Source: Pseudomonadota bacterium
Lineage (GTDB): Bacteria; Pseudomonadota; Gammaproteobacteria; Acidiferrobacterales; Acidiferrobacteraceae
NCBI GenBank assembly: GCA_021785035.1
Contig: JAJYGP010000066.1
Span: 1 to 62,591 of the forward strand
Direction: 5' to 3'
Length of the DNA stretch: 62,591 nt
The notes below the pieces were generated by a model. That model did not search any database. It saw nothing but the letters and a program-made list of their open reading frames with translations, and was not told the DNA's origin. The position numbers were made by a program, and so were the translations under genes. Each line of letters opens with the position of its first letter. The first letter of the stretch is position 1. Below, in pieces: positions 19,378 to 31,221 of this stretch.

Positions 19378-20139
19378 GTGACCGAGAAAGGCTATTTTGC
19401 CAGTATTTTCGCACGTGATCCAGCGGCGCGTTCGCGTTTCGAGATCCTGACGCTCTATCCGGGCGTCCACGCCGTGGGCTTGTATCGCGTGGCCCATAAG
19501 CTCTGGCAGCTGCGTGCCCGCTGGCTGGCCCAGGTGGTTGCGCATTTCGCGCGGTTTGTGACCGGCATCGAGATCCATCCGGCGGCCCGCCTGGGGCGGC
19601 GCTTATTCATCGATCATGGCTTTGGTGTGGTGATCGGGGAAACGGCCGAGGTCGGCGATGATTGCACCTTATACCAAGGGGTCACCCTGGGTGGCACGAG
19701 CTGGCAGCCCGAAAAACGGCACCCGACTTTAGGCAATAACGTGGTCGTCGGGGCCGGCGCCAAGGTCTTGGGTCCCATTACTATCGGAGATGGCGCCCGG
19801 ATTGGCTCGAATTCGGTGGTCGTAAAGAATGTTCCGGCGGGCGCTACGGTCGTTGGTATTCCCGGGCACGTGGTCGTAAAGCCCGAGGAGCGGGCGCGGT
19901 CGCGTGCGGCGCTTGCCCAAAGGATTGGTTTTGAGGCCTACGGTCAGGAAGCGCAGACCCCGGATCCGGTCGCCTATGCCATCGATTGCGTTTTGGACCA
20001 CTTGCAGGTCGTGGACCGACGCCTAGAGCGGCTGTGCGAGGAGTTGAGGAAAGCGGGTATCCCCTTGAGTCATACGGCCGACGCCCCGGCGGCTACCCGC
20101 CCTAACGGGGCCTCCGAGGCCGATCCCACGCCCCGTTAA
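19378..20139 (+). CDS. cysE: CysE, serine O-acetyltransferase
   Basis: A 253-aa left-handed beta-helix acetyltransferase that makes O-acetylserine for cysteine synthesis. N-terminal helices (1-60) precede hexapeptide repeats ([54 protein letters not shown]). A longer low-complexity tail follows residue 180. The GTG start has AAGGAAAGAGG upstream. Between trmJ and iscR it is placed to supply cysteine, the sulfur donor for IscS, and it has its own IscR-type box. Confidence 0.94.
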
Positions 20140-20163
20140 TAGTTGACTAATTTTGTCAGGCAT
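20139..20163 (+). promoter_or_regulatory. IscR type-1-like box at the iscR promoter
   Basis: This 25-mer begins on the last base of the cysE stop codon and contains TTGACTAATTTTGTCA. It fits the E. coli type-1 IscR site and overlaps a -35-like TTGACT (20143-20148) with CAGTAT 17 bases downstream. This suggests autorepression of iscR by [2Fe-2S]-IscR, as in E. coli. The reverse complement shares 14 consecutive bases with the box before cysE. Confidence 0.8.
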
Positions 20164-20198
20164 GACAGTATAGAGGCCGAATAGACGAGGATGTGGCC

Positions 20199-20672
20199 AT
20201 GAAATTGACGACCAAGGGGCGATATGCGGTAACCGCGATGTTAGATCTCGCTGTACACCAGCAGGATCAGACGGTTGCATTGGCTGATATCGCGTCGAGA
20301 CAGGGGATTTCGCTGTCCTATTTGGAGCAATTATTTGCCAAGTTGCGCCGCAAGGGTTTAGTCGCCAGTGTCCGCGGACCCGGGGGTGGGTATAGCCTCG
20401 CGGTGCCGGCTTCGGGGATTTCCGTCGCCCAGATTGTAGTCGCCATCAATGAGAATATCGATGCGACGCGTTGTGGGGGAGAGGAGAATTGCCAGGGTGA
20501 AGAGCGTTGTCTCACGCACCACTTGTGGACGGAATTGAGCCACAGGATCTATGAATTTTTGGACGGGATTACGCTTGCCGATCTGGTAAGCCAGCCAGGG
20601 GTGCAGGAGGTGGTGTTGCGGCAAGCAAGGCGTCCTTCAATTGCCGTGGATGTGCCTAATACTTGGGTCTGA
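20199..20672 (+). CDS. iscR: IscR, Rrf2-family Fe-S regulator
   Basis: A 157-aa winged-helix repressor. The N-terminal [18 protein letters not shown], the wing [10 protein letters not shown] and the cluster ligands Cys92, Cys98, Cys104 and His107 all match E. coli IscR position for position. It senses Fe-S demand through a [2Fe-2S] cluster. ATG 20199 is preferred over the ATG two codons earlier because it gives the family N terminus. First gene of the isc operon; iscS follows after 11 bases. Confidence 0.97.
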
Positions 20673-20683
20673 TGGGAGCCGAA

Positions 20684-21898
20684 ATGAGAAAGCCGATTTA
20701 CCTAGATTATTCCGCCACGACCCCGGTCGATCCGAGGGTCGCCGAGACCATGTGTCGCTACTTAACCCTAGACGGTGAGTTCGGTAACCCCGCATCGCGC
20801 TCCCATGCCTTCGGCTGGCAGGCAGAAAAGGCGGTCGAACAGGCGCGCGCCGATGTGGCCGCTTTGATTCATGCCGACCCCAAGGAGATCGTCTGGACGT
20901 CGGGCGCCACAGAATCGGATAACCTTGCATTAAAGGGTGCGGCCCACTTTTATCAGAACAAGGGGCGGCACATCGTCACGGTAAAAACCGAGCATAAGGC
21001 GATCTTGGATACTGCCCGGCAGCTCGAACGCGAAGGATTTTCGGTGACCTACTTGGATCCCGAACCCAATGGGCTTGTGGATATGGCGAAGCTCGAAGCG
21101 GCCTTGCGTCCGGACACGATTTTGGTGTCTGTCATGCATGTGAATAATGAGATCGGCGTAATCCAGGATCTGGCGGCGATCAGCAAGATCCTGCGCCCGC
21201 GGGGCATCATTTTTCATTCGGATGCGGCCCAAAGCGCCGGGAAGGTCGAGGTGGATGTTGCGGCGCTGGGCGTCGATCTCCTGTCTTTGAGCGCGCACAA
21301 GGTCTACGGACCGAAAGGCATAGGAGCTTTGTATGTGCGGCGCAAACCGCGGGTACGTCTTGAGGCGCAAATGCACGGCGGAGGCCATGAGCGTGGCATG
21401 CGTTCTGGCACCCTCGCGACCCATCAGATCGTGGGTATGGGAGAGGCGTTTCGCTTGGCGCGCGAAGAGATGGTGTCGGAAGCCAAGCGACTGAGTGGCC
21501 TACGCGACCAGCTTTTGCGCGGACTTTCGGACATCGAAGAAGTGTATGTGAACGGGGACCTCGAGCACAGGATCCCAGGTAACCTGAACATCAGCTTTAA
21601 TTTTGTCGAGGGTGAATCGCTCATCATGGCTCTGAAGGAACTCGCGGTGTCGTCGGGTTCGGCGTGCACGTCGGCGAGCCTCGAGCCCTCTTATGTCTTG
21701 CGGGCCTTGGGACGGAACGACGAGTTGGCGCATAGTTCGATTCGGTTCACTATCGGGCGCTTCACGACCGCCGAGGACATTGAATATACGGTGCGGCTGT
21801 TGCACGAAAAGATCGGGCGCCTGCGGGAGCTGTCGCCCTTATGGGAGATGTACAAAGACGGCATTGACCTCAATTCGGTGCAGTGGGCTGCTCATTAA
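20684..21898 (+). CDS. iscS: IscS, cysteine desulfurase
   Basis: A 404-aa PLP enzyme, the same length as E. coli IscS, converting cysteine to alanine and enzyme-bound persulfide for Fe-S clusters, thiolation and cofactors. [16 protein letters not shown] opens the protein; the PLP lysine lies in [12 protein letters not shown] and the persulfide cysteine in the mobile loop [12 protein letters not shown]. The ATG at 20684 has GGGAG upstream. Confidence 0.98.
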
Positions 21899-21924
21899 AT
21901 CTGTGATACCAGAAGGAGAACGAT

Positions 21925-22329
21925 ATGGCATACGGGACTAAGGTTTTGGATCATTATGAAAATCCGCGGAACGTCGGTTCGTTCGACAAGGCTGACCCCA
22001 CGATCGGTACCGGCATGGTCGGCGCCCCGGCGTGCGGGGACGTGATGAAGCTGCAGATTCGCGTGAATAGCGAGGGTGTTATTGAGGAGGCGCGTTTTAA
22101 GACCTACGGATGTGGAAGCGCTATCGCCTCGAGCTCGCTTTTGACGGAATGGGTCAAAGGTAAGACCTTGGAGGAGGCTGGCGCGATCAAAAACACCGAC
22201 ATTGCTGAGGAATTGGCGCTGCCTCCCGTCAAGATCCACTGCTCGGTATTGGCTGAGGATGCTATTAAGGCCGCTATCGCCGATTACCGTAAGAAGGCCG
22301 GTAGATCCGATAGTGCGAACGCGGCATAA
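21925..22329 (+). CDS. iscU: IscU, Fe-S scaffold
   Basis: A 134-aa scaffold on which [2Fe-2S] and [4Fe-4S] clusters are built. Cluster cysteines Cys37, Cys63 and Cys106 are at the E. coli positions, and the HscA-recognition motif LPPVK is at 99-103. AGAAGGAG precedes the ATG. A short extra C-terminal tail (about 6 residues) is present. Confidence 0.98.
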   Translation: MAYGTKVLDHYENPRNVGSFDKADPTIGTGMVGAPACGDVMKLQIRVNSEGVIEEARFKTYGCGSAIASSSLLTEWVKGKTLEEAGAIKNTDIAEELALPPVKIHCSVLAEDAIKAAIADYRKKAGRSDSANAA

Positions 22330-22343
22330 AGGAGTGAGATGAC

Positions 22344-22667
22344 ATGGCTGTGACATTGACCGAGAACGCGGCGCAGCATGTGCGTCGTTCGCTTGAGAAG
22401 CGCGGCCGGGGAGAGGGTCTGAGGCTCGGGGTGCGCACGAGCGGCTGTTCGGGGATGGCCTATGTCCTCGAATACGCAGACCAGATAGGGGCCGAGGACT
22501 ATGTCTACGAAAGTTACGGTGTGAAGGTTCTCGTGGACCCAAAGAGTCTCGTGTATCTCGAAGGGACACAGTTGGATTATACGCGCGAGGGCTTGAACGA
22601 AGGGTTCCGTTTCAATAATCCGAATCAGAAGGAGTCCTGCGGTTGCGGTGAAAGCTTCAGCGTATAG
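22344..22667 (+). CDS. iscA: IscA, A-type Fe-S carrier
   Basis: A 107-aa A-type carrier, identical in length to E. coli IscA, with the three conserved cysteines Cys35 (SGCSGMAY), Cys99 and Cys101 (CGCGESF). It carries iron or [4Fe-4S] clusters to targets. AGGAG lies 9 bases before the ATG; the gap from iscU is 14 bases. Confidence 0.97.
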
Positions 22668-22681
22668 AACGAGGGCACCGC

Positions 22682-23200
22682 ATGGCACGAAATTACTTCG
22701 AATTGTTTGGTCTTCCCGTCCGCTTTGATATTGATAGGGAAGATCTCGCGCGGCGCCATCGGGAGTTGATCCGAACCTGGCATCCCGATCGGTTCGCGCA
22801 AGGTTCGAGCCAGGAGCGCAGGCTTGCCGTCGAGATGAGCGCGGATCTCAACGATGGGGTGAAGGTCTTGCGCGATCCCATAGACCGCGCTCGTTATGTC
22901 CTAAAATTAAACGGTGTCTCGACCGACGAGGAGACGGATACCGTCATGGATGCCGCGTTTCTCCAAGACCAAATGACGTGGCGCGAGCGTCTGGAAGAGA
23001 GTCAGGGCGATGCTGTTGTTGTCGATGGTCTAGTCGCGGAGGTCGCGACCTTGCGGACGCACAAGGAAGCGGCCTTGAGTCGCGCCTTGGCGCAAGAGGC
23101 CGGGTCTGGCTTTGCGGGTGCGCGACAATTGGTTCGCGAGCTGCAGTTCCTCCGTCGGTTTGCCGACGAGCTCGACGACGTACAAGCCGGAGTATCGTAA
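22682..23200 (+). CDS. hscB: HscB, J-domain co-chaperone
   Basis: A 172-aa co-chaperone that delivers IscU to HscA. The J domain occupies residues 1-75 with His-Pro-Asp at 34-36; the C-terminal helical domain (90-170) carries the IscU-binding face. Stop at 23200 and hscA start at 23202 are one base apart, which implies coupled translation. Confidence 0.96.
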
Positions 23201-23201
23201 C

Positions 23202-25043
23202 ATGGCCTTACTGCAAATCAGCGAGCCCGGACAGTCGCCGCTTCCGCACGAACGGCGGCGCGCGGCGGGTATCGATCTTGGTACCACCAATTCCCTTATA
23301 GCGACGGTCCGCGACGGCCATGTACAGGTGCTCGGCGATGCCGAAGGCCGCATCCTCTTACCGTCGGTTGTGCGTTTCCATGCCGATGGCGCAGCGACGA
23401 TAGGGCAAGCCGCGGCTGAGGCCGAGGTTTCGGATCCGCTGAATACCATCGCGTCAGTCAAGCGGCTCATGGGCCGCGGCCGCGCCGAGATCGGCGCGAG
23501 CCCCTACGATCTGAGTAGTACGGATGAAGGCCCGGTGCGCCTGCGGACGGTGGCCGGGGAGAAGACCCCGGTGGAGGTCTCGGCGCACATCCTGCGTGCC
23601 CTCAAGGCGCGCGCCGAAGCGTATTTGGGTGGGGAACTGAGCGGGGTGGTCATCACGGTGCCTGCCTATTTTGATGAACCGCAACGCCAGGCGACCAAAG
23701 ACGCCGCGCGTTTGGCCGGGCTACCGGTTCTGCGGCTTTTGAACGAACCGACGGCGGCTGCGGTCGCCTATGGACTCGACCGCAATCCCGAGGGGCTCTA
23801 CTGTGTCTACGACTTAGGAGGCGGCACCTTCGATGTCTCACTTTTGCGGCTATCGCAAGGAGTTTTTGAGGTCTTGGCGACCGGCGGCGATGCCCTTCTG
23901 GGTGGGGACGATATGGATGCGGCGCTCGTGCGTCACTGGATGGGCGAAGGAGCGCGGGCGACTTCGCCTTCGGAGACTCGCCAGCTCTTGCGCGCAGCGC
24001 GCCACGCGCGCGAACGCTTGAGTGGGGAGACCGAAATCATGATCGACGTCCCTGGCGTGTTTCAAGGGCTGTTGAACCGCGCAACGCTCGAGGGTCTGAT
24101 CGATCCCTTAATCGAGCGTACCCTGGCCCCTTGTCGACGCGTTTTAAAAGACGCCGGTGTGAAAGTGGCCGACATTCACGAGGTCGTCTTGGTCGGAGGC
24201 GCCACCAGGACCCCGCGCTTGCGTGAAAGGATAGAGGGATTTTTCCGCAAGGCGCCCTTACACGACATCGACCCCGATCAAGTAGTGGCGATCGGGGCCG
24301 CGCGCCAAGCCGATCTTTTGATTGGTAATGCCGGCGCCGCTGATATGCTGCTCTTGGATGTCATTCCCTTGTCGTTGGGTCTTGAGATTATGGGCGGGCT
24401 GGTCGAGAAGATTATTCCGCGTAATTCTCCGATACCGGCCTCGCGTGCCCAGGAGTTTACGACCTACAAAGACGGTCAGACGGCCTTGGCGTTACACGTG
24501 GTGCAGGGGGAGCGGGACTTGGTGAGCGATTGTCGATCCTTGGCGCGTTTTTCCTTGCGCGGCATCCCGCCGATGGTGGCCGGTGCGGCCCGTATCCGTG
24601 TGACCTTTCGAGTCGATGCTGATGGACTTCTCAGTGTGACGGCGCGCGAACTGACGCAGGGCATAGAGAGCGAGATCACGGTCAAACCGTCGTTCGGCCT
24701 GTCGGACGCGGATATCGAACGGATGTTGGGGGATTCGATCATTCATGCGAGCGACGACGCTTTGATGCGCGCCCTTCGCGAACAACAAGTTGAGGCGGAT
24801 CGGATGATAGTAGCGGTAGAGGCGGCGATGGCCGAGGGCGCGGACCTTCTCATGGAAAACGAAAGGACCGCCATCGAGCGTCAGATGGTCCTTCTACAAA
24901 GCGTCAAAGGTGGCACCGACCCCCAGGCGATACGGGCGGCGATCGTTAGCCTCGATCAAGCCAGCGCGGACTTTGCGGCACGCCGCATGGACGCCGGTCT
25001 TCGGAAGGCGATGACGGGCCGCTCAGTCACCGAGTTCTCGTGA
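23202..25043 (+). CDS. hscA: HscA, specialised Hsp70 for Fe-S assembly
   Basis: A 613-aa Hsp70 that binds the LPPVK motif of IscU and uses ATP to release its cluster. The ATPase domain opens with [12 protein letters not shown] near residue 19, contains [15 protein letters not shown] and [11 protein letters not shown], and is followed by the substrate domain. Its frame is open about 30 codons further upstream inside hscB, but ATG 23202 gives the family start. It ends in TGATG, overlapping the fdx start. Confidence 0.97.
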
Positions 25044-25381
25044 TGGGCCGGATTCGCGTCTTGCCGCACCCGGAGATCTGTCCTGAGGGTGCGGAATTCG
25101 ACGCACCTGAAGGGATGAGTGTGTGTGATGCCCTTTTGGGTGCGGGCATATCCATAGAGCATGCCTGTGAGAAGGCCTGTGCCTGTACCACCTGTCATGT
25201 GTTGATCCGTCAAGGTTTTGAGGCCTTGACGCCGGCCGAAGAGAAGGAAGAGGATCTGCTGGACAAGGCTTGGGGGCTTGAGCCGGACTCCCGTTTAAGC
25301 TGCCAAGCCAAGATACCGAAGGAGACCCTGGTGGTGGAGATTCCGAAATACACCATCAACATGGTCTCGGAAGTTCATTGA
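25043..25381 (+). CDS. fdx: Fdx, isc [2Fe-2S] ferredoxin
   Basis: A 112-aa adrenodoxin-type ferredoxin giving electrons to Fe-S assembly on IscU. Ligands Cys42, Cys48, Cys51 and Cys87 match E. coli Fdx; Cys46 is the extra conserved cysteine. The ATG overlaps the hscA stop codon. Confidence 0.97.
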   Translation: MGRIRVLPHPEICPEGAEFDAPEGMSVCDALLGAGISIEHACEKACACTTCHVLIRQGFEALTPAEEKEEDLLDKAWGLEPDSRLSCQAKIPKETLVVEIPKYTINMVSEVH

Positions 25382-25400
25382 TTGCAAGGAGCTTCTTGAT

Positions 25401-25607
25401 ATGGGTCTAAAATGGAGCGACGCCTCCGATATCGCCATTGCCTTGAGTGAGCGCCATCCCGATATCGATCCCCGCTACATCCGCTACACCGATCTGCATC
25501 GCTGGGTGCTTGATATCGAAGACTTCGATGATGAGCCGGAGCGGTCCGGGGAGAAGCTGCTGGAAGCGATCCAGATGGCCTGGATCGAGGAAGTCGACCA
25601 GGACTAA
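25401..25607 (+). CDS. iscX: IscX, acidic Fe-S assembly modulator
   Basis: A 68-aa acidic protein (E. coli IscX is 66) that binds IscS and modulates desulfurase activity with iron. The pattern MGLKWSDASDIAIALSERHPDIDP and DLHRWVLDIEDFDDEP is unmistakable. The next gene, a GGDEF protein, starts only 2 bases after the stop codon. Confidence 0.96.
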   Translation: MGLKWSDASDIAIALSERHPDIDPRYIRYTDLHRWVLDIEDFDDEPERSGEKLLEAIQMAWIEEVDQD

Positions 25608-25609
25608 GT

Positions 25610-26536
25610 ATGGACACCGAAAATGCTCCCTCTCGGGCGCCGGGTTTTGTCATCGTTCGGTTGTGGATTCTCGTGGAGGCCGACCTCTTGCGTTTGGCGC
25701 GCTTGGCCTTGGACGCGACCCGGGCGTGTGGTGGGAATGTCTTTAGGGCAGCGGAGAACGTCAGCGCGGTCTTAGCGCGAATGCGCGAGGCGCGGGTCAC
25801 GGCCGGTGGTGCGCTCGAGGTCCGACTGATGGCAGGCGAACAGCAGCTTCATCTCGATTTTGCCGAGCAATGTCACGTGGTATCGGAGATGCAGGCGGTG
25901 GAGAGCGATCATTTGACCAGGCTTGCCGCGCGCTTGCGCGACGAAAGCGAAAGCCGTGACGCCGAGCTTCTGTGGCAGCGAAATCGCGAGGCGGCGCGGA
26001 TTGCAGCCGCCCAAGCCGAGGCCCTGGAGGCCTTGGAAAAAAGCCTCTTGGAAAAGCGCCAGGCCCTGGCTGCGGCCACTTTGCAGGCCGACACTGACCC
26101 TCTGACCGGTCTTTGCAACCGTCGTGCCTATGATGCGCGACTCGATCAGGCGGTGGCCCAAGCGGATTCAAGCGCGCGGCCGCTTAGCTTATTGCTTCTC
26201 GATTTGGATCACTTCAAGGACATAAACGATAGCGGGGGTCATGGTGCCGGCGACCGCCATTTGCAGCATGTAGGCGCGGTCTTACGGGCGGTCGTTTCCG
26301 ATCCCGGCGACAGCGCCTGTCGGACCGGCGGCGACGAGTTCGCTTTAATCATGGCCGCATCCTTGGGGCAGGCTTTAGAGGTCGCGCAAGGAGTCATTAG
26401 GGCCTTGGATGCGGGTGTCAGTATCGGTGTTTCTCTGTACCGTCAAGGGGACACCGCCCAGACTTTAGCCGGTCGCGCCGATCAAGCGCTTTACCGAGCG
26501 AAAGATGCGGGGCGCGGACGGGTCATGGTCGCCTGA
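25610..26536 (+). CDS. GGDEF diguanylate cyclase of a stressosome-like module
   Basis: A 308-aa cytoplasmic protein. Residues about 160-308 form a GGDEF domain with LTGLCNRRAYD, LLLDLDHFKDINDSGGHGAGD and an intact catalytic GGDEF at 240-244, so c-di-GMP synthesis is expected. The inhibitory RxxD site five residues upstream is absent (DPGD). Residues 100-160 look coiled-coil. Residues 10-90 are unassigned; EADLLRLARLALDA and the hydrophobic pattern weakly recall the start of RsbT-type HATPases, without the N and G boxes. It follows iscX by 2 bases and abuts the RsbT/RsbX fusion. Confidence 0.88.
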   Translation: MDTENAPSRAPGFVIVRLWILVEADLLRLARLALDATRACGGNVFRAAENVSAVLARMREARVTAGGALEVRLMAGEQQLHLDFAEQCHVVSEMQAVESDHLTRLAARLRDESESRDAELLWQRNREAARIAAAQAEALEALEKSLLEKRQALAAATLQADTDPLTGLCNRRAYDARLDQAVAQADSSARPLSLLLLDLDHFKDINDSGGHGAGDRHLQHVGAVLRAVVSDPGDSACRTGGDEFALIMAASLGQALEVAQGVIRALDAGVSIGVSLYRQGDTAQTLAGRADQALYRAKDAGRGRVMVA

Positions 26537-27601
26537 TTGGACAAACGCACGCTGTGTGATGTCCGGCTGCTATTTGACCAGACCCTCATTGCCGAGAGCG
26601 ATCTCATTCGTCTGAAGGCGAGGCTCAGCGCGGTCACTCTGCGGATGGGCTTTAGCCCGGCGCTCACCGAGCGTGCGCGCATGGTGGCGTCCGAGATGGC
26701 GACCAATCAGGGTAAGTACGCCGGCGGCCGCGGTTTGCTCCAGGTATGGGAGGCCAAGATCGGTGATCACCGGGCGCTGGACCTTTTTGCGCTCGACTAT
26801 GGGCCCGGTATTCCCAATCTCACCGCGGCGCTCGTGGATGGATATAGTACCAGCGGCACTTTGGGCAAGGGTCTTGGTGGCATGAAACGGCTTGCGCACG
26901 AGTTCGGGCTGATCACCCGGACCGCGGCCAGTCCGGAGATTCCCTGGCACGGCACGGCCTTGTGGGCCCGATTTCATTCCGATAGCGCGGGGGCGGGTCC
27001 GGGGCGGTTCGCGACCCATTGGCACCTGGGCCTCTATCGACGCAGTTACCAGGATGCGCGCGAAAACGGCGATGGTTTTGTGATCTGTACGCGCTCGGGG
27101 CTCCGGGTTCTCCATCTCGACGCGCTCGGGCATGGACCCTTGGCGGCCGATGTGGTGGACGCGGCTACCCAGGGTTTTGATTGTACGAGACCGCTTAGAC
27201 AGGCCCTGATTGAGCTTGAGTTGCACCCGCGCATGAAACGCGGGGCGGCCGCGTGTTGTTACGAAGCGACCGATCAGGGTGGTTTACTCTGGCTGGGGGT
27301 CGGGGACATGCAGGCATGTTTATTGCAAGGGATGTCTCGCCAGACCTTGGGTTTCGGACCCGGTATATTGGGCCAAGTGCGCGGTGGCTTGCATGAGGCC
27401 GAGTGGGCTTGGCCAGCAGGCGCTCTGGTGGCCACTGCGTCGGATGGCTTACGGAGTGATTGGTCGCGGGCCTTGGCCCTGTTGCCGGGTTCGCCGCCGC
27501 AATTGCTGGCTTATTTTCTGGGTCATGTGTTCGGGCGGCTCACGGACGACCGATCATGTGTCATTGTGAGACGGGGAGTGGGGAGAGACAATGGAAAATG
27601 A
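26537..27601 (+). CDS. RsbT-type kinase fused to RsbX-type phosphatase
   Basis: A 354-aa protein joining two stressosome activities. Residues 1-140 are an RsbT-like HATPase serine kinase: N box Glu53/Asn57 (SEMATNQGKYAGG), G1 box DYGPG at 87-91 and GKGLGGMKRLAHEF near 110-124. Residues about 160-350 are a PP2C/SpoIIE-type phosphatase like RsbX with DALGHG at 195-200 and TASDGL near 307. In Bacillus these are separate proteins that phosphorylate and dephosphorylate RsbR/RsbS. The TTG start at 26537 follows the previous stop immediately; the 3' end overlaps rsbR by 11 bases. Confidence 0.85.
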   Translation: MDKRTLCDVRLLFDQTLIAESDLIRLKARLSAVTLRMGFSPALTERARMVASEMATNQGKYAGGRGLLQVWEAKIGDHRALDLFALDYGPGIPNLTAALVDGYSTSGTLGKGLGGMKRLAHEFGLITRTAASPEIPWHGTALWARFHSDSAGAGPGRFATHWHLGLYRRSYQDARENGDGFVICTRSGLRVLHLDALGHGPLAADVVDAATQGFDCTRPLRQALIELELHPRMKRGAAACCYEATDQGGLLWLGVGDMQACLLQGMSRQTLGFGPGILGQVRGGLHEAEWAWPAGALVATASDGLRSDWSRALALLPGSPPQLLAYFLGHVFGRLTDDRSCVIVRRGVGRDNGK

Positions 27602-28457
27602 AGGGGCAATCCAGGCCTTATTGATAGCACAACTGCAGCTGAAGATCGGGACTCTCACGGAGACCATCGAGAAGCGTGGGCGGGATATTTTCGGGGACCG
27701 GAATCTCATGTCTCTCGATGAGATTACCGATGCGAGTGTTGAATTTTTGGAGCTCATTGTGGCTGTGCTCCAGTCCCCCGAACCCCTCCAGGCGCGCGGC
27801 CCGGCGTTCATGGCGCTGACCCGGTTTATTAGCGAAATCGCCCAGCAGATCCTTGTGCGGGGCGGGGATATGGAGCAGTTCCTTCGTTACATTATGTTCA
27901 TGCAACGCTTGTTCCTGGAGTCGCTTGAGGAGCGCGCGGATATGTCGTTTAGCGAGGCCCGGGCCGTACTTTTGCTGCTCGCGACCCTTTTTAACGAAAT
28001 GATGTTGTCGGTGTTTCATACCTATCTGGACGAGCGCGAAGAGACCATTCGCGCCCAACAAGACGAACTGAAGCAGACATCGACGCCCATCACCAGCATC
28101 TGGGATGGGGTACTGACCCTTCCTATCATCGGTACCTTGGATTCCCAGCGCGCCTTGGTGATCATGGAGCGGCTCCTCACCAAGATCGAATCCGAGCGGG
28201 CGCGTGCTGTGGTCATGGATGTGACAGGCGTCCAGACCGTGGATTCCCAGGTGGCCCATCACCTGATCCAGATGACGCGCGCCGTCCGGCTCATGGGCGC
28301 CAGCGCCATTTTGACGGGTATTCGTCCCGATATTGCCCGGGCGTTGACGAGCCTTGATATCGAATTGACTGATGTCACAACCCGCGCCACCTTGTCCGAT
28401 GGCTTGAAGGAGGCGTTTCGGCTTATGAATATCGAGGTCCGTGAGAAGCCGGTGTGA
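27591..28457 (+). CDS. rsbR: RsbR-like stressosome scaffold/sensor
   Basis: A 288-aa protein with a helical N-terminal sensory domain (about 1-150; no heme or flavin motif recognised) and a C-terminal STAS domain (165-285). The STAS domain aligns well with B. subtilis RsbRA: GTLDSQRA and DVTGVQTVDSQVAHHLIQ. Ser185 and Ser219 fall 34 residues apart, matching Thr171 and Thr205, so both phosphorylation sites are kept as serine. It should assemble into a stressosome-type complex with the next protein. Confidence 0.88.
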   Translation: MENEGAIQALLIAQLQLKIGTLTETIEKRGRDIFGDRNLMSLDEITDASVEFLELIVAVLQSPEPLQARGPAFMALTRFISEIAQQILVRGGDMEQFLRYIMFMQRLFLESLEERADMSFSEARAVLLLLATLFNEMMLSVFHTYLDEREETIRAQQDELKQTSTPITSIWDGVLTLPIIGTLDSQRALVIMERLLTKIESERARAVVMDVTGVQTVDSQVAHHLIQMTRAVRLMGASAILTGIRPDIARALTSLDIELTDVTTRATLSDGLKEAFRLMNIEVREKPV

Positions 28458-28795
28458 GACGGCCCTGGCATCTCACCAAGATCGGCTCCGCCGGCCTCTT
28501 GCTTGAGCCAAGCGAGGGTCTCGATCCGAGCGCGGGCCTGGACTACGTGGAGGACTTGGTCCGGGTCTTGCTTGCGAGCGACAGTCGCTATTTATACTAT
28601 GATGTCAAAGACGTTGCGGTCATTGATCCCGTCTACTACCAATGGCTATTGCAGCTGGAGAGAAGCTGTCGACTCTTGGGGACGGTCCTGGTCATCCTTC
28701 ATATGCGCCCCGAAACCGCCTTTGCCCTTGGTCGGGACCTCGACGGGCCGATCTCTTTCTCCTGCGCCCAAAGTCTCGATAGGCCGCCCGTGTAA
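28454..28795 (+). CDS. rsbS: RsbS-like STAS protein lacking the phosphorylatable serine
   Basis: A 113-aa stand-alone STAS protein in the position and size range of RsbS. The helix-capping motif that carries the phosphorylated Ser59 in B. subtilis reads DVAVIDPVYYQWLL here, placing Pro at residue 59. Phosphorylation by the neighbouring kinase at that site is therefore impossible. Its start overlaps rsbR by 4 bases (GTGA). It is the last gene of the run that starts at iscR; the stop is followed by the ndk promoter region. Confidence 0.78.
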   Translation: MRRPWHLTKIGSAGLLLEPSEGLDPSAGLDYVEDLVRVLLASDSRYLYYDVKDVAVIDPVYYQWLLQLERSCRLLGTVLVILHMRPETAFALGRDLDGPISFSCAQSLDRPPV

Positions 28796-28913
28796 GGGTG
28801 AGTCGGAAGGCTGGCGTATCAGAGTTTAGGGCTTCTGGTACACTGGCCGGAATCAATAAATTGCCGCCTCCCGAAGTAGGCGCTAGAATGCGCCCATTTC
28901 GGCACTCACCCTT
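28794..28913. repeat. Ten-base inverted repeat flanking the ndk promoter
   Basis: AAGGGTGAGT at 28794-28803 (overlapping the rsbS-like stop) pairs perfectly with ACTCACCCTT at 28904-28913, which is followed by TTT. The arms enclose 100 bases that contain the ndk promoter. In a read-through transcript the pairing could act as a weak terminator or fold the ndk leader; a chance repeat cannot be excluded. Confidence 0.35.
28861..28889 (+). promoter_or_regulatory. Sigma-70 promoter for ndk
   Basis: TTGCCG at 28861-28866 and TAGAAT at 28884-28889 are separated by 17 bases. The expected start near 28896 gives a leader of about 33 bases with AAGGA before the ATG. It marks a new transcription unit after the stressosome genes. 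Confidence 0.65.
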
Positions 28914-28928
28914 TTTAAGGAATTAGGC

Positions 28929-29360
28929 ATGGCCATCGAACGTACACTCTCCATTATCAAGCCAGACGCGGTTGGAAAAAACGCCATTGGGGCGATCTAT
29001 GCCCGTTTTGAGAAGGCGGGGTTGCGGATCGTCGCGGCCCGCATGATGCACCTGACCCGCGCCCAGGCGGAGGGGTTTTATGCCGTTCACAGGGAGCGGC
29101 CGTTTTTTGCCGATCTCGTCGCTTTCATGAGCTCGGGTCCGGTCATGGTTCAGGTGCTCGAGGGAGAGCAGGCGATCGCCAAGAATCGCGAGGTGATGGG
29201 GGCGACCAACCCCAAAGCGGCGGCACCTGGCACGATCCGTGCCGACTTCGCGGCCAGCATAGATGAGAACGCCGTGCATGGGTCCGATGGCCCCGACACG
29301 GCGCGCGCTGAGATCGCCTACTTTTTTGCGGATATGGATCTCTGTCCGCGTACTCGTTAG
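28929..29360 (+). CDS. ndk: Ndk, nucleoside diphosphate kinase
   Basis: A 143-aa NDP kinase equilibrating NTP and dNTP pools. The N terminus [15 protein letters not shown] and the C-terminal [21 protein letters not shown], with catalytic His in NAVHGSD, are diagnostic and the length is standard. First gene of the conserved ndk-rlmN-pilW-rodZ-ispG-hisS-yfgM-bamB-der block. Confidence 0.98.
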
Positions 29361-29387
29361 GAGGGTAGTCTGGAGGAAACGGGCTTT

Positions 29388-30461
29388 GTGAACTTGCTGG
29401 GCTTGGATCGGGCTGGTCTTGTGGATTTTATGCGCCAGATGTCCGAGCCTGCTTTTCGCGCGCAACAGATCTTCCCCTGGATGCACCAGCGCGGGGTCAC
29501 GAACTTTGCCGCTATGACGAATATCGGTAAGGCCCTGGCTGAGCGTTTGGGTGAGCGGGCGCGGGTCAGTCTTCCCGAGATCGTGACCGAGCATCTGTCG
29601 ATGGACGGGACCCGGAAATGGGTTTTGCGGCTCGAGGACGGGAATGCGATCGAAACCGTGTTCATTCCGGAGGTCGACCGCAATACCCTTTGTATTTCGT
29701 CGCAGGTCGGCTGCGCCCTTGATTGCGCCTTTTGCGCGACTGCCCAGGAAGGATTTAACCGGAATCTGACGGCCGCAGAAATCGTAGGCCAAGTGTGGCT
29801 TGCCGAACACACCCTGCGGCAACGCCAAGACGGCGCGGGACGGGTTATTACGAATGTGGTCTTTATGGGCATGGGCGAGCCGCTTTTGAACCTGAAAGAG
29901 GTGGGTCCCGCGATTCGGATCATTTTGGACGATCTTGGCTACGGACTGTCGCGTCGGCGGGTCACGGTCAGTACTGCCGGTGTCGTCCCTCACATCGACC
30001 GCTTGCACGAGGAGGCGCCGGTCAGCCTCGCGGTCTCTTTGCATGCCCCAGATGACGCCTTGCGCACAACCCTCGTGCCGCTGAACAAGAAATATCCTAT
30101 CGCAGAACTCCTCGAGGCCTGCCGTCGCTATGTAGCGCGGGACCCGCGCCGCCGCATTACCTTTGAGTACGCGATGCTAGCGGGCGTGAACGATAGTCCA
30201 GACCAAGCCCGCGCCTTGGCGCGCCTTTTGCGGACCGTGCCCGCGAAGATCAATTTGATTCCATTCAATCCGTTTCCGGGTACCCGTTTCGAGCGTTCCA
30301 CGGATTCGGTGATAGACGCGTTTCGGGATATCCTTCTCGCATCCGGCATCGTGACCATGACCCGACGCACGCGTGGGGACAGTATTCGGGCGGCCTGTGG
30401 GCAGCTTGCCGGGGTGGTTAAGGAACGGACTCGCCGCGTGGTGCCTATTCATGTTTCGTAA
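29388..30461 (+). CDS. rlmN: RlmN, 23S rRNA/tRNA adenine-C2 methyltransferase
   Basis: A 357-aa radical-SAM methyltransferase modifying A2503 of 23S rRNA and A37 of some tRNAs. The cluster motif CALDCAFC, the GMGEP motif in [12 protein letters not shown] and the resolving cysteine near RAACGQLAG are present. GTG start; the stop overlaps pilW by 11 bases. Confidence 0.96.
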
Positions 30462-31221
30462 AAAGCTTATTTGGACGGTGGTTTTTCTGGGTGGATTGGC
30501 CGGTTGCGCGACCGGCCCCAGACTCACCCCCCAGTCTCATAAGCTCGTCCAGTTGCGAGTCGCGCTTGGTGTCGGTTATATGCGCCAGGGGCAGTTGGGT
30601 CTCGCGCGTAATGAGCTGGCGCAGGCTTTGGCTACCGATCCCACTGACGCCGCGGCCTTGAGTGCGATGGCGATCGCCGAAGAACGGCTTCGAGAGCCCG
30701 CCAAGGCAGCACACTATTTTCGGAAGGGCTTGTCCCTGCATCCGCACGACGGCAACCTCCAGAACAACTATGGGGCGTTTTTGTGTGGGCAAGGCGATGT
30801 GAAACAGGCAATCCGGCACTTCAAGGCGGCTCTGCATTCGCCGCTTTACGCAACGCCTCAGATAGCCGATCTCAATATGGGCGTATGTCTTATGAGGACG
30901 ACTCAGAGAAAGGCCGCCATCCATTACTTTCATAGGGCCCAGGCCCTGGCGCCAGCTTTGGCCGACCCGTATTATTACTTGGCGCGAATCCGCTATAAGG
31001 GCCACGAATGGCACCGGGCCAAGGTCGATCTCCACCAATACTTGCAACTGACCCGGAGTGCCCAAGCGCTCTTTTTGGGGGTCAAGATCGGGCGCGCGCT
31101 CGGCGATAAAAAGCTTATTCGGTTTTGTGCCACTCGGCTTTTGGGTAATTACGGGCGTACCGCTCAGGCGCGCAGAGTCGAGGCGTGGCAGCGGAAGGGG
31201 CAGCTCTTTGGACATCCTTGA
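30451..31221 (+). CDS. pilW: PilW/PilF-type TPR lipoprotein
   Basis: A 256-aa lipoprotein (lipobox LAGC, Cys19) with about five tetratricopeptide repeats ([60 protein letters not shown]). The family pilots the PilQ secretin to the outer membrane for type IV pili. ATG 30451 is chosen because it begins the signal peptide. The ATG lies inside the end of rlmN. Confidence 0.9.

Follow-up and report, generated by a model that had tools for sequence, protein, structure and literature searches.

Why should genes for a stressosome and a diguanylate cyclase follow directly on those for iron-sulphur cluster assembly? This question is raised by the window, the whole stretch of 62,591 nt that was analysed, in which the isc operon was originally predicted to run on into a stressosome and c-di-GMP module. 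Open reading frames and Pfam matches confirmed twelve co-directional genes on the forward strand, from iscR through an rsbS-like gene (Table 1), with a gap of 2 nt between the iscX stop at 25607 and the cyclase start at 25610. As predicted, the cyclase and RsbT:RsbX genes abut (0 nt) and the next two junctions overlap, by 11 nt between the RsbT:RsbX and RsbR-like genes and by 4 nt between the RsbR-like and RsbS-like genes. Downstream of the RsbS-like gene lie 133 nt, then ndk at 28929 and rlmN at 29388. The explanation that we favour, at a probability of about 55%, is that a one-time ancestral insertion placed the four-gene cassette between iscX and the ndk promoter, where it would now form the tail of the isc transcript, with a dose set by IscR and with its cyclase controlled through a scaffold and a kinase.

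Table 1. Features of the isc-ndk region of the window. Within the operon, iscS, iscU, iscA, hscB and hscA were named by position and by the conserved order in relatives.
Feature	Position	Strand	Basis or remark
isc promoter region with IscR type-1-like site ATAGTTGACTAATTTTGTCAGGCAT (site 20139-20163)	20115-20198	+	
iscR-iscS-iscU-iscA-hscB-hscA-fdx-iscX	20199-25607	+	ORFs; Pfam for iscR, fdx, iscX
iscR	20199-20672	+	Pfam Rrf2
fdx	25040-25381	+	ORF and Pfam
iscX	25401-25607	+	Pfam Fe-S_assembly, 1.4e-31
GGDEF diguanylate cyclase gene	25610-26536	+	Pfam GGDEF, 2.2e-36
RsbT:RsbX fusion gene	26537-27601	+	TTG start codon; family profile matches
RsbR-like gene	27591-28457	+	Pfam STAS, 1.3e-13
RsbS-like STAS gene	28454-28795	+	STAS 0.0046 in the window, below cut-off; family profile
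ndk promoter-like TTGCCG-17-TAGAAT, downstream boundary of the cassette	28861-28889	+	Consensus scan; also before ndk in empty-slot relatives

The RsbR-like protein combines a helical N-terminal domain (Pfam RsbRD_N 0.0046, below its cut-off) with a STAS domain and is closest to solved stressosome RsbR chains (3.6e-34). Both the STAS domain and the phosphosites of a stressosome RsbR are present, S219 being Ser in 35 and Thr in 2 of 37 sequences and T242 being Thr in all 37. Haem or Fe-S ligands in RsbR found no support: no column of the N-terminal domain has Cys in at least 18 of the 37 sequences, and its best His column, H143, reaches 23/37. The RsbT:RsbX fusion joins an N-terminal GHKL kinase half (E53, N57, D87, G89, G91) to a C-terminal PP2C phosphatase half (D179, D195, D303, D337, D338). 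Of 37 fusions, 36 or 37 have each of these residues, and the wider set of 17 positions checked across kinase and phosphatase is conserved in 35-37. An RsbT kinase with its N-box and G-box residues is present, though fused to a phosphatase, and a separate RsbX protein is replaced by the fused domain. By itself, the window protein has no Pfam match; among 12 members of its family, ten match HATPase_c_2 and ten match SpoIIE. The fusion profile matches RsbX 3w40 (2e-9) and 3zt9 (1.2e-18), which we take to be a Moorella protein and which is the best solved relative of the X domain. A genome search for an RsbU-type phosphatase returned one weak SpoIIE match at the cut-off, on another contig, in a search insensitive enough to miss the fused phosphatase of the window itself.

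In the RsbS-like family, 26 of the 32 sequences match STAS at E 0.05, and the family profile aligns with RsbS (8.6e-5), which supports the STAS relation and locates the phospho-Ser position. The window protein has Pro at this residue, 59, where RsbS has its phospho-Ser, and a phosphorylatable Ser59 is not a feature of the family (P 7, T 4, E 4, N 4, Q 4, S 3, R 3, G 2 and A 1 among the 32 members); a mostly conserved Y-Y-x-W follows. In B. subtilis, an RsbS S59A mutant still signals and S59 is not essential (PMC3944199, in extract), so a system without Ser59 can work.

The cyclase comprises an N-terminal domain (residues 13-95), a helical stalk (about 99-160) and a GGDEF domain (160-303) whose GGDEF residues are kept in 36/36 cyclases. 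Its AlphaFold model (mean pLDDT 90.7, pTM 0.61) predicts for the N-domain a beta-alpha-alpha-beta-beta-beta fold. In the ten best structure-match rows this domain agrees with the beta-alpha-alpha-beta-beta half of the GHKL kinase fold, with a weak Foldseek match and disagreeing sequence profiles; the predicted fold may resemble half of an RsbW/SpoIIAB-type kinase. As to an ATP-binding N-box or G1-box, columns 40-95 of the alignment of 36 cyclases hold no conserved Glu/Asn pair or DxGxG, and hhalign, local or global, found no sequence homology between the N-domain and the RsbT domain (positive control, RsbS-like against the RsbR STAS domain, 96.1%). An RsbU_N domain was considered and rejected: Pfam, which we take to contain an RsbU_N model, returned none among the matches of 30 members at E 1, and the predicted fold has four beta strands. 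The Moorella route described for MtG, in which RsbT binds an RsbU_N-type domain of the cyclase, is very improbable here on both counts, RsbU having a four-helix bundle (PMC12143880, in extract). The predicted stressosome-cyclase module is thus real and tightly packed behind iscX, but it has an RsbS-like protein without a conserved phospho-Ser, a fused kinase and phosphatase and a cyclase without an RsbU_N match; its sequences suggest an atypical form of the bacterial stressosome that departs from the textbook RsbRSTX.

Judged from gene content and order across genomes, the cyclase, RsbT:RsbX, RsbR and RsbS-like genes are a conserved four-gene cassette. The fusion protein was matched in 19 of the 57 genomes of the order, in 15 of them beside the cyclase, RsbR and RsbS-like genes; two of these 15 loci, both on short contigs, show three of the four genes (L009 without the RsbS-like gene, L015 without the cyclase). 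A pattern scan of named GTDB genomes found 36 loci, of which 34 carry the complete set, ordered cyclase, RsbT:RsbX, RsbR, RsbS-like, and two (L120 and L135) have one gene missing at a contig end. Their record titles include Thiobacillus, Sulfuricaulis, which is placed in Acidiferrobacterales (PMC5024460, in extract), Gallionellaceae, Thioalkalivibrio denitrificans and Desulfobotulus alkaliphilus, several being just Proteobacteria. In a class sample of 276 genomes at least 90% complete, the fusion was matched at 1e-30 in 14, of which 13, the window included, have the full cassette and one (G049) has another module. Outside the family, 31 loci searched over up to four mechanical ORFs per side revealed no conserved fifth partner: neighbour clusters comprised at most four loci, except for one of ten loci that holds apparently unrelated response-regulator/GGDEF proteins, judging from one representative and GGDEF matches. 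Among the matches listed in open PMC papers, there was no report of a cyclase in or beside an isc operon, or of an RsbT:RsbX-GGDEF cassette.

Conserved linkage to isc in relatives, on which the prediction depended, held in part. Within the window's family, 4 of 18 genomes (G000, G004, G006 and G017) have the whole cassette between iscX and ndk, behind a conserved IscR-type site; besides the window these are three genomes, whose RsbT:RsbX proteins are 89, 59 and 47% identical to that of the window. A fifth genome, G011, shows only the start of the cassette, at a contig edge about 100 nt past the iscX stop. There, a GTG 25 nt past that stop opens a cyclase-like frame (profile E 1.2e-5 among six frames) that short-query blastp relates to the proteins of G004 (7e-8) and the window (2e-7), at E 3.1 in an ordinary two-sequence blastp; neither RsbT:RsbX nor RsbR was found elsewhere in this assembly. 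In the other 13 genomes, however, the slot is empty, with 108-279 nt between iscX and ndk, and no cassette remnants were found in 16 gaps (12 of the window's family, 4 of other families). The ndk promoter-like element or a close form precedes ndk in 15/16 family loci and, by the expression used, in 0/4 loci of other families; G017 has TTGCCG-17-TACAAT, a form outside the search expression, and the element of G009 was found among the iscX-ndk gaps. Since this promoter is kept behind the cassette, the limits of the slot are the iscX stop on one side and the ndk promoter on the other. Moreover, the window and three diverged genomes have all four genes in this slot, and dN/dS of the genes against the nearest relative, G004, is 0.08-0.13, so the arrangement is beyond chance.

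Presence is patchy inside one genus, as it would be if the cassette had been acquired independently into one slot, via homologous recombination in the flanking isc and ndk genes. We consider this quite unlikely, because the cassette and isc-gene trees agree for the four complete carriers, although four tips are few. These carriers form one clade in the cassette tree, every split having support 100, in an order matching the isc tree. In the latter, G017 is deepest in the family, G011 groups with G000 and G004 (support 86), G006 is sister to ten genomes with an empty slot (100) and a second genus contributes a group of three that are likewise empty (100). The matching trees suggest a single old insertion followed by two losses; with G011 counted as a carrier, no more than one gain and two losses are needed.

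Beyond the family the linkage failed: no isc gene was found in the available DNA beside the cassette in 33/36 named loci, or within 1.5 kb in 12 of 13 class-sample loci. The three isc-linked named loci, L105-L107, correspond to G004, G006 and G017 and so add no independent cases to those counted in the family. Linkage to isc is specific to this lineage, and the cassette itself is the more general novelty. This distribution suits a passenger position, in which the isc operon gives steady expression, control of the cassette is wholly post-translational and the IscR logic is incidental. So do the RsbR N-terminal domain, with its lack of a Cys column and its best His column at H143, and the 160 nt before the cyclase in 31 non-isc loci, where no IscR-like site was found (best 8/25 mismatches; L109 and L135 could not be scored). 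The slot, however, has been kept in three family lineages though RsbT:RsbX identity falls to 47%, and we regard a passenger position as possible but as having less than an even chance.

IscR control of the operon is suggested by the region 5' of iscR. The window site ATAGTTGACTAATTTTGTCAGGCAT has 2/25 mismatches to the 25-letter consensus that we take to be that of IscR type-1 sites, where the best of 100 shuffles has 7. Across all 20 loci, including 16/16 family genomes, the consensus is found 5' of iscR with 0-4 mismatches of 25, whereas the best of 100 mononucleotide shuffles per locus has 5-9, and the 11-mer ATAGTTGACTA recurs 5' of iscR in 16/16 family genomes having the region and in 17 of the 20 loci. 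Because this site is conserved, IscR control of the isc operon is likely in the window's family. From the packing, such control likely extends to the cassette, in this family only and not in general, and the IscR state may set the level of the complex.

The predicted absence of promoters and terminators inside the run proved to be weak evidence. A consensus scan of 19500-30500 listed 4 promoter-like sites where chance predicts 3.4, and 9 terminator-like sites where it predicts 10.8; one terminator-like site, at 25632-25644, falls within the first codons of the cyclase. With sites at chance rate and the isc promoter itself unlisted, the scan is uninformative either way. A cassette promoter of its own, within iscX or fdx, would leave the cassette outside the isc transcript. 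Consensus scans are blind to unusual promoters, and G017 has 71 nt between iscX and the cyclase. The gap is 2 nt in the window and G004, however, and the best sigma-70-like scores in the 160 nt before the cyclase of the four isc-linked loci (5, 6, none and 7 of 12) are within background, though the non-isc loci as a group score no better. We think a separate promoter unlikely. Nothing clear emerged as a conserved promoter before seven Thiobacillus cassettes.

Taken together, the gene content, order and packing, the catalytic residues, the slot conservation, the matching trees and the IscR type-1-like site are the sequence-based parts of the insertion reading, and the four-gene unit probably controls c-di-GMP. 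Most cassette expression would come by read-through from the isc promoter, which holo-IscR would repress, so that Fe-S shortage or oxidative stress would raise the cassette dose. RsbR and the RsbS-like protein may build a STAS scaffold to which RsbT:RsbX attaches by its kinase half. Upon a signal at the RsbR sensor domain, the kinase would phosphorylate RsbR (S219, T242), and the fused phosphatase would reset it. The cyclase would be the output: its N-domain, with a predicted fold shared with partner-switching kinases, may dock to the STAS proteins or the RsbT domain and thereby order or break the coiled-coil stalk dimer that governs c-di-GMP synthesis, by analogy with SiaC-SiaD and RsbT-RsbU. 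A more tentative and rather doubtful extension makes the cyclase itself a stressosome client, whose degenerate half-kinase N-domain would mimic RsbT and either dock on the STAS scaffold, at the Y-Y-x-W face after the lost Ser59, or pair with the RsbT domain. c-di-GMP would then be made or withheld at the stressosome, and the number of complexes would be set by Fe-S status via IscR in the window's family. Little is known of how Gram-negative stressosomes deliver their output. With its built-in cyclase, fused kinase-phosphatase and predicted docking domain, this compact conserved unit provides a route that can be tested directly; in the window's family, its position behind isc would link c-di-GMP to iron-sulphur status.

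Among known systems, the Gram-negative RsbRSTX modules of Vibrio vulnificus and others share with the cassette RsbR and RsbS STAS proteins, RsbT, RsbX and an adjacent output gene, in some a GGDEF gene; their outputs are diverse, one Vibrio stressosome being tied to iron metabolism, and some but not all of their downstream proteins have an RsbU_N-like domain (PMC9237108, in extract). The cassette differs in its kinase-phosphatase fusion, in having the output gene first and in its lack of a conserved Ser59. Two genomes of the same taxonomic order as the window, G042 (L101) and G040 (L102), carry besides the cassette a module of separate R, S, T and X genes with Ser at the site (VMDSF), the domain content of L101 being checked by Pfam. 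The Moorella thermoacetica stressosome with its cyclase MtG shares an RsbT-type kinase and a diguanylate cyclase output, c-di-GMP in Moorella being the subject of PMC4976288 (in extract). MtG, however, is depicted with RsbU_N and GAF, neither of which was found in the cassette cyclase; the paper that depicts it also describes cyclases with an RsbU_N domain and the ordering of the RsbU coiled-coil linker by RsbT (PMC12143880, in extract).

SiaD of Pseudomonas aeruginosa matches the stalk and GGDEF of the cassette cyclase (residues 92-305; 110.9 bits, below the SiaD cut-off of 290), which has an extra N-terminal domain before the aligned part. We know of no RsbR-type scaffold in the Sia system. 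In SiaABCD, as may be the case here, control of a stalked GGDEF cyclase lies with a STAS-like protein and its kinase, and SiaC stabilises the SiaD stalk dimer (PMC8457831, in extract). Finally, the locus shares with the isc operon iscRSUA-hscBA-fdx-iscX its gene order and IscR-type promoter site, and differs from it in that, in the window's lineage, four signalling genes follow iscX.

Alignment of 36 cassette cyclases placed RxxD, the usual inhibitory-site motif, at the expected position in just one protein, and the window cyclase lacks the motif there (window 26300-26341), suggesting that product inhibition may be missing. For the cyclase of G006, a family genome with the complete cassette between iscX and ndk, no in-frame ATG, GTG or TTG was found directly after iscX (L106:6990-7120); the start candidates lie inside iscX, at a non-standard ATT or at codons farther downstream in frame. 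The ndk promoter is strongly conserved across the window's family.

Coordinates of the ndk promoter and of RsbR-RsbS-RsbT-RsbX modules in which T and X are encoded by different genes
Feature	Position	Strand	Detail
ndk promoter	window 28861-28889	+	TTGCCG-17-TAGAAT
Module	L101:2947-5232		genome G042
Module	L102:7460-9759		genome G040

Several RsbT-like and kinase-phosphatase-like stretches lie one after another at three loci (L016, L017 and L026) of genomes G033 and G049. Genomes G042 and G040 each harbor the cassette together with a separate-gene module, and the RsbS of both modules carries Ser at site 59, the phospho-Ser position.
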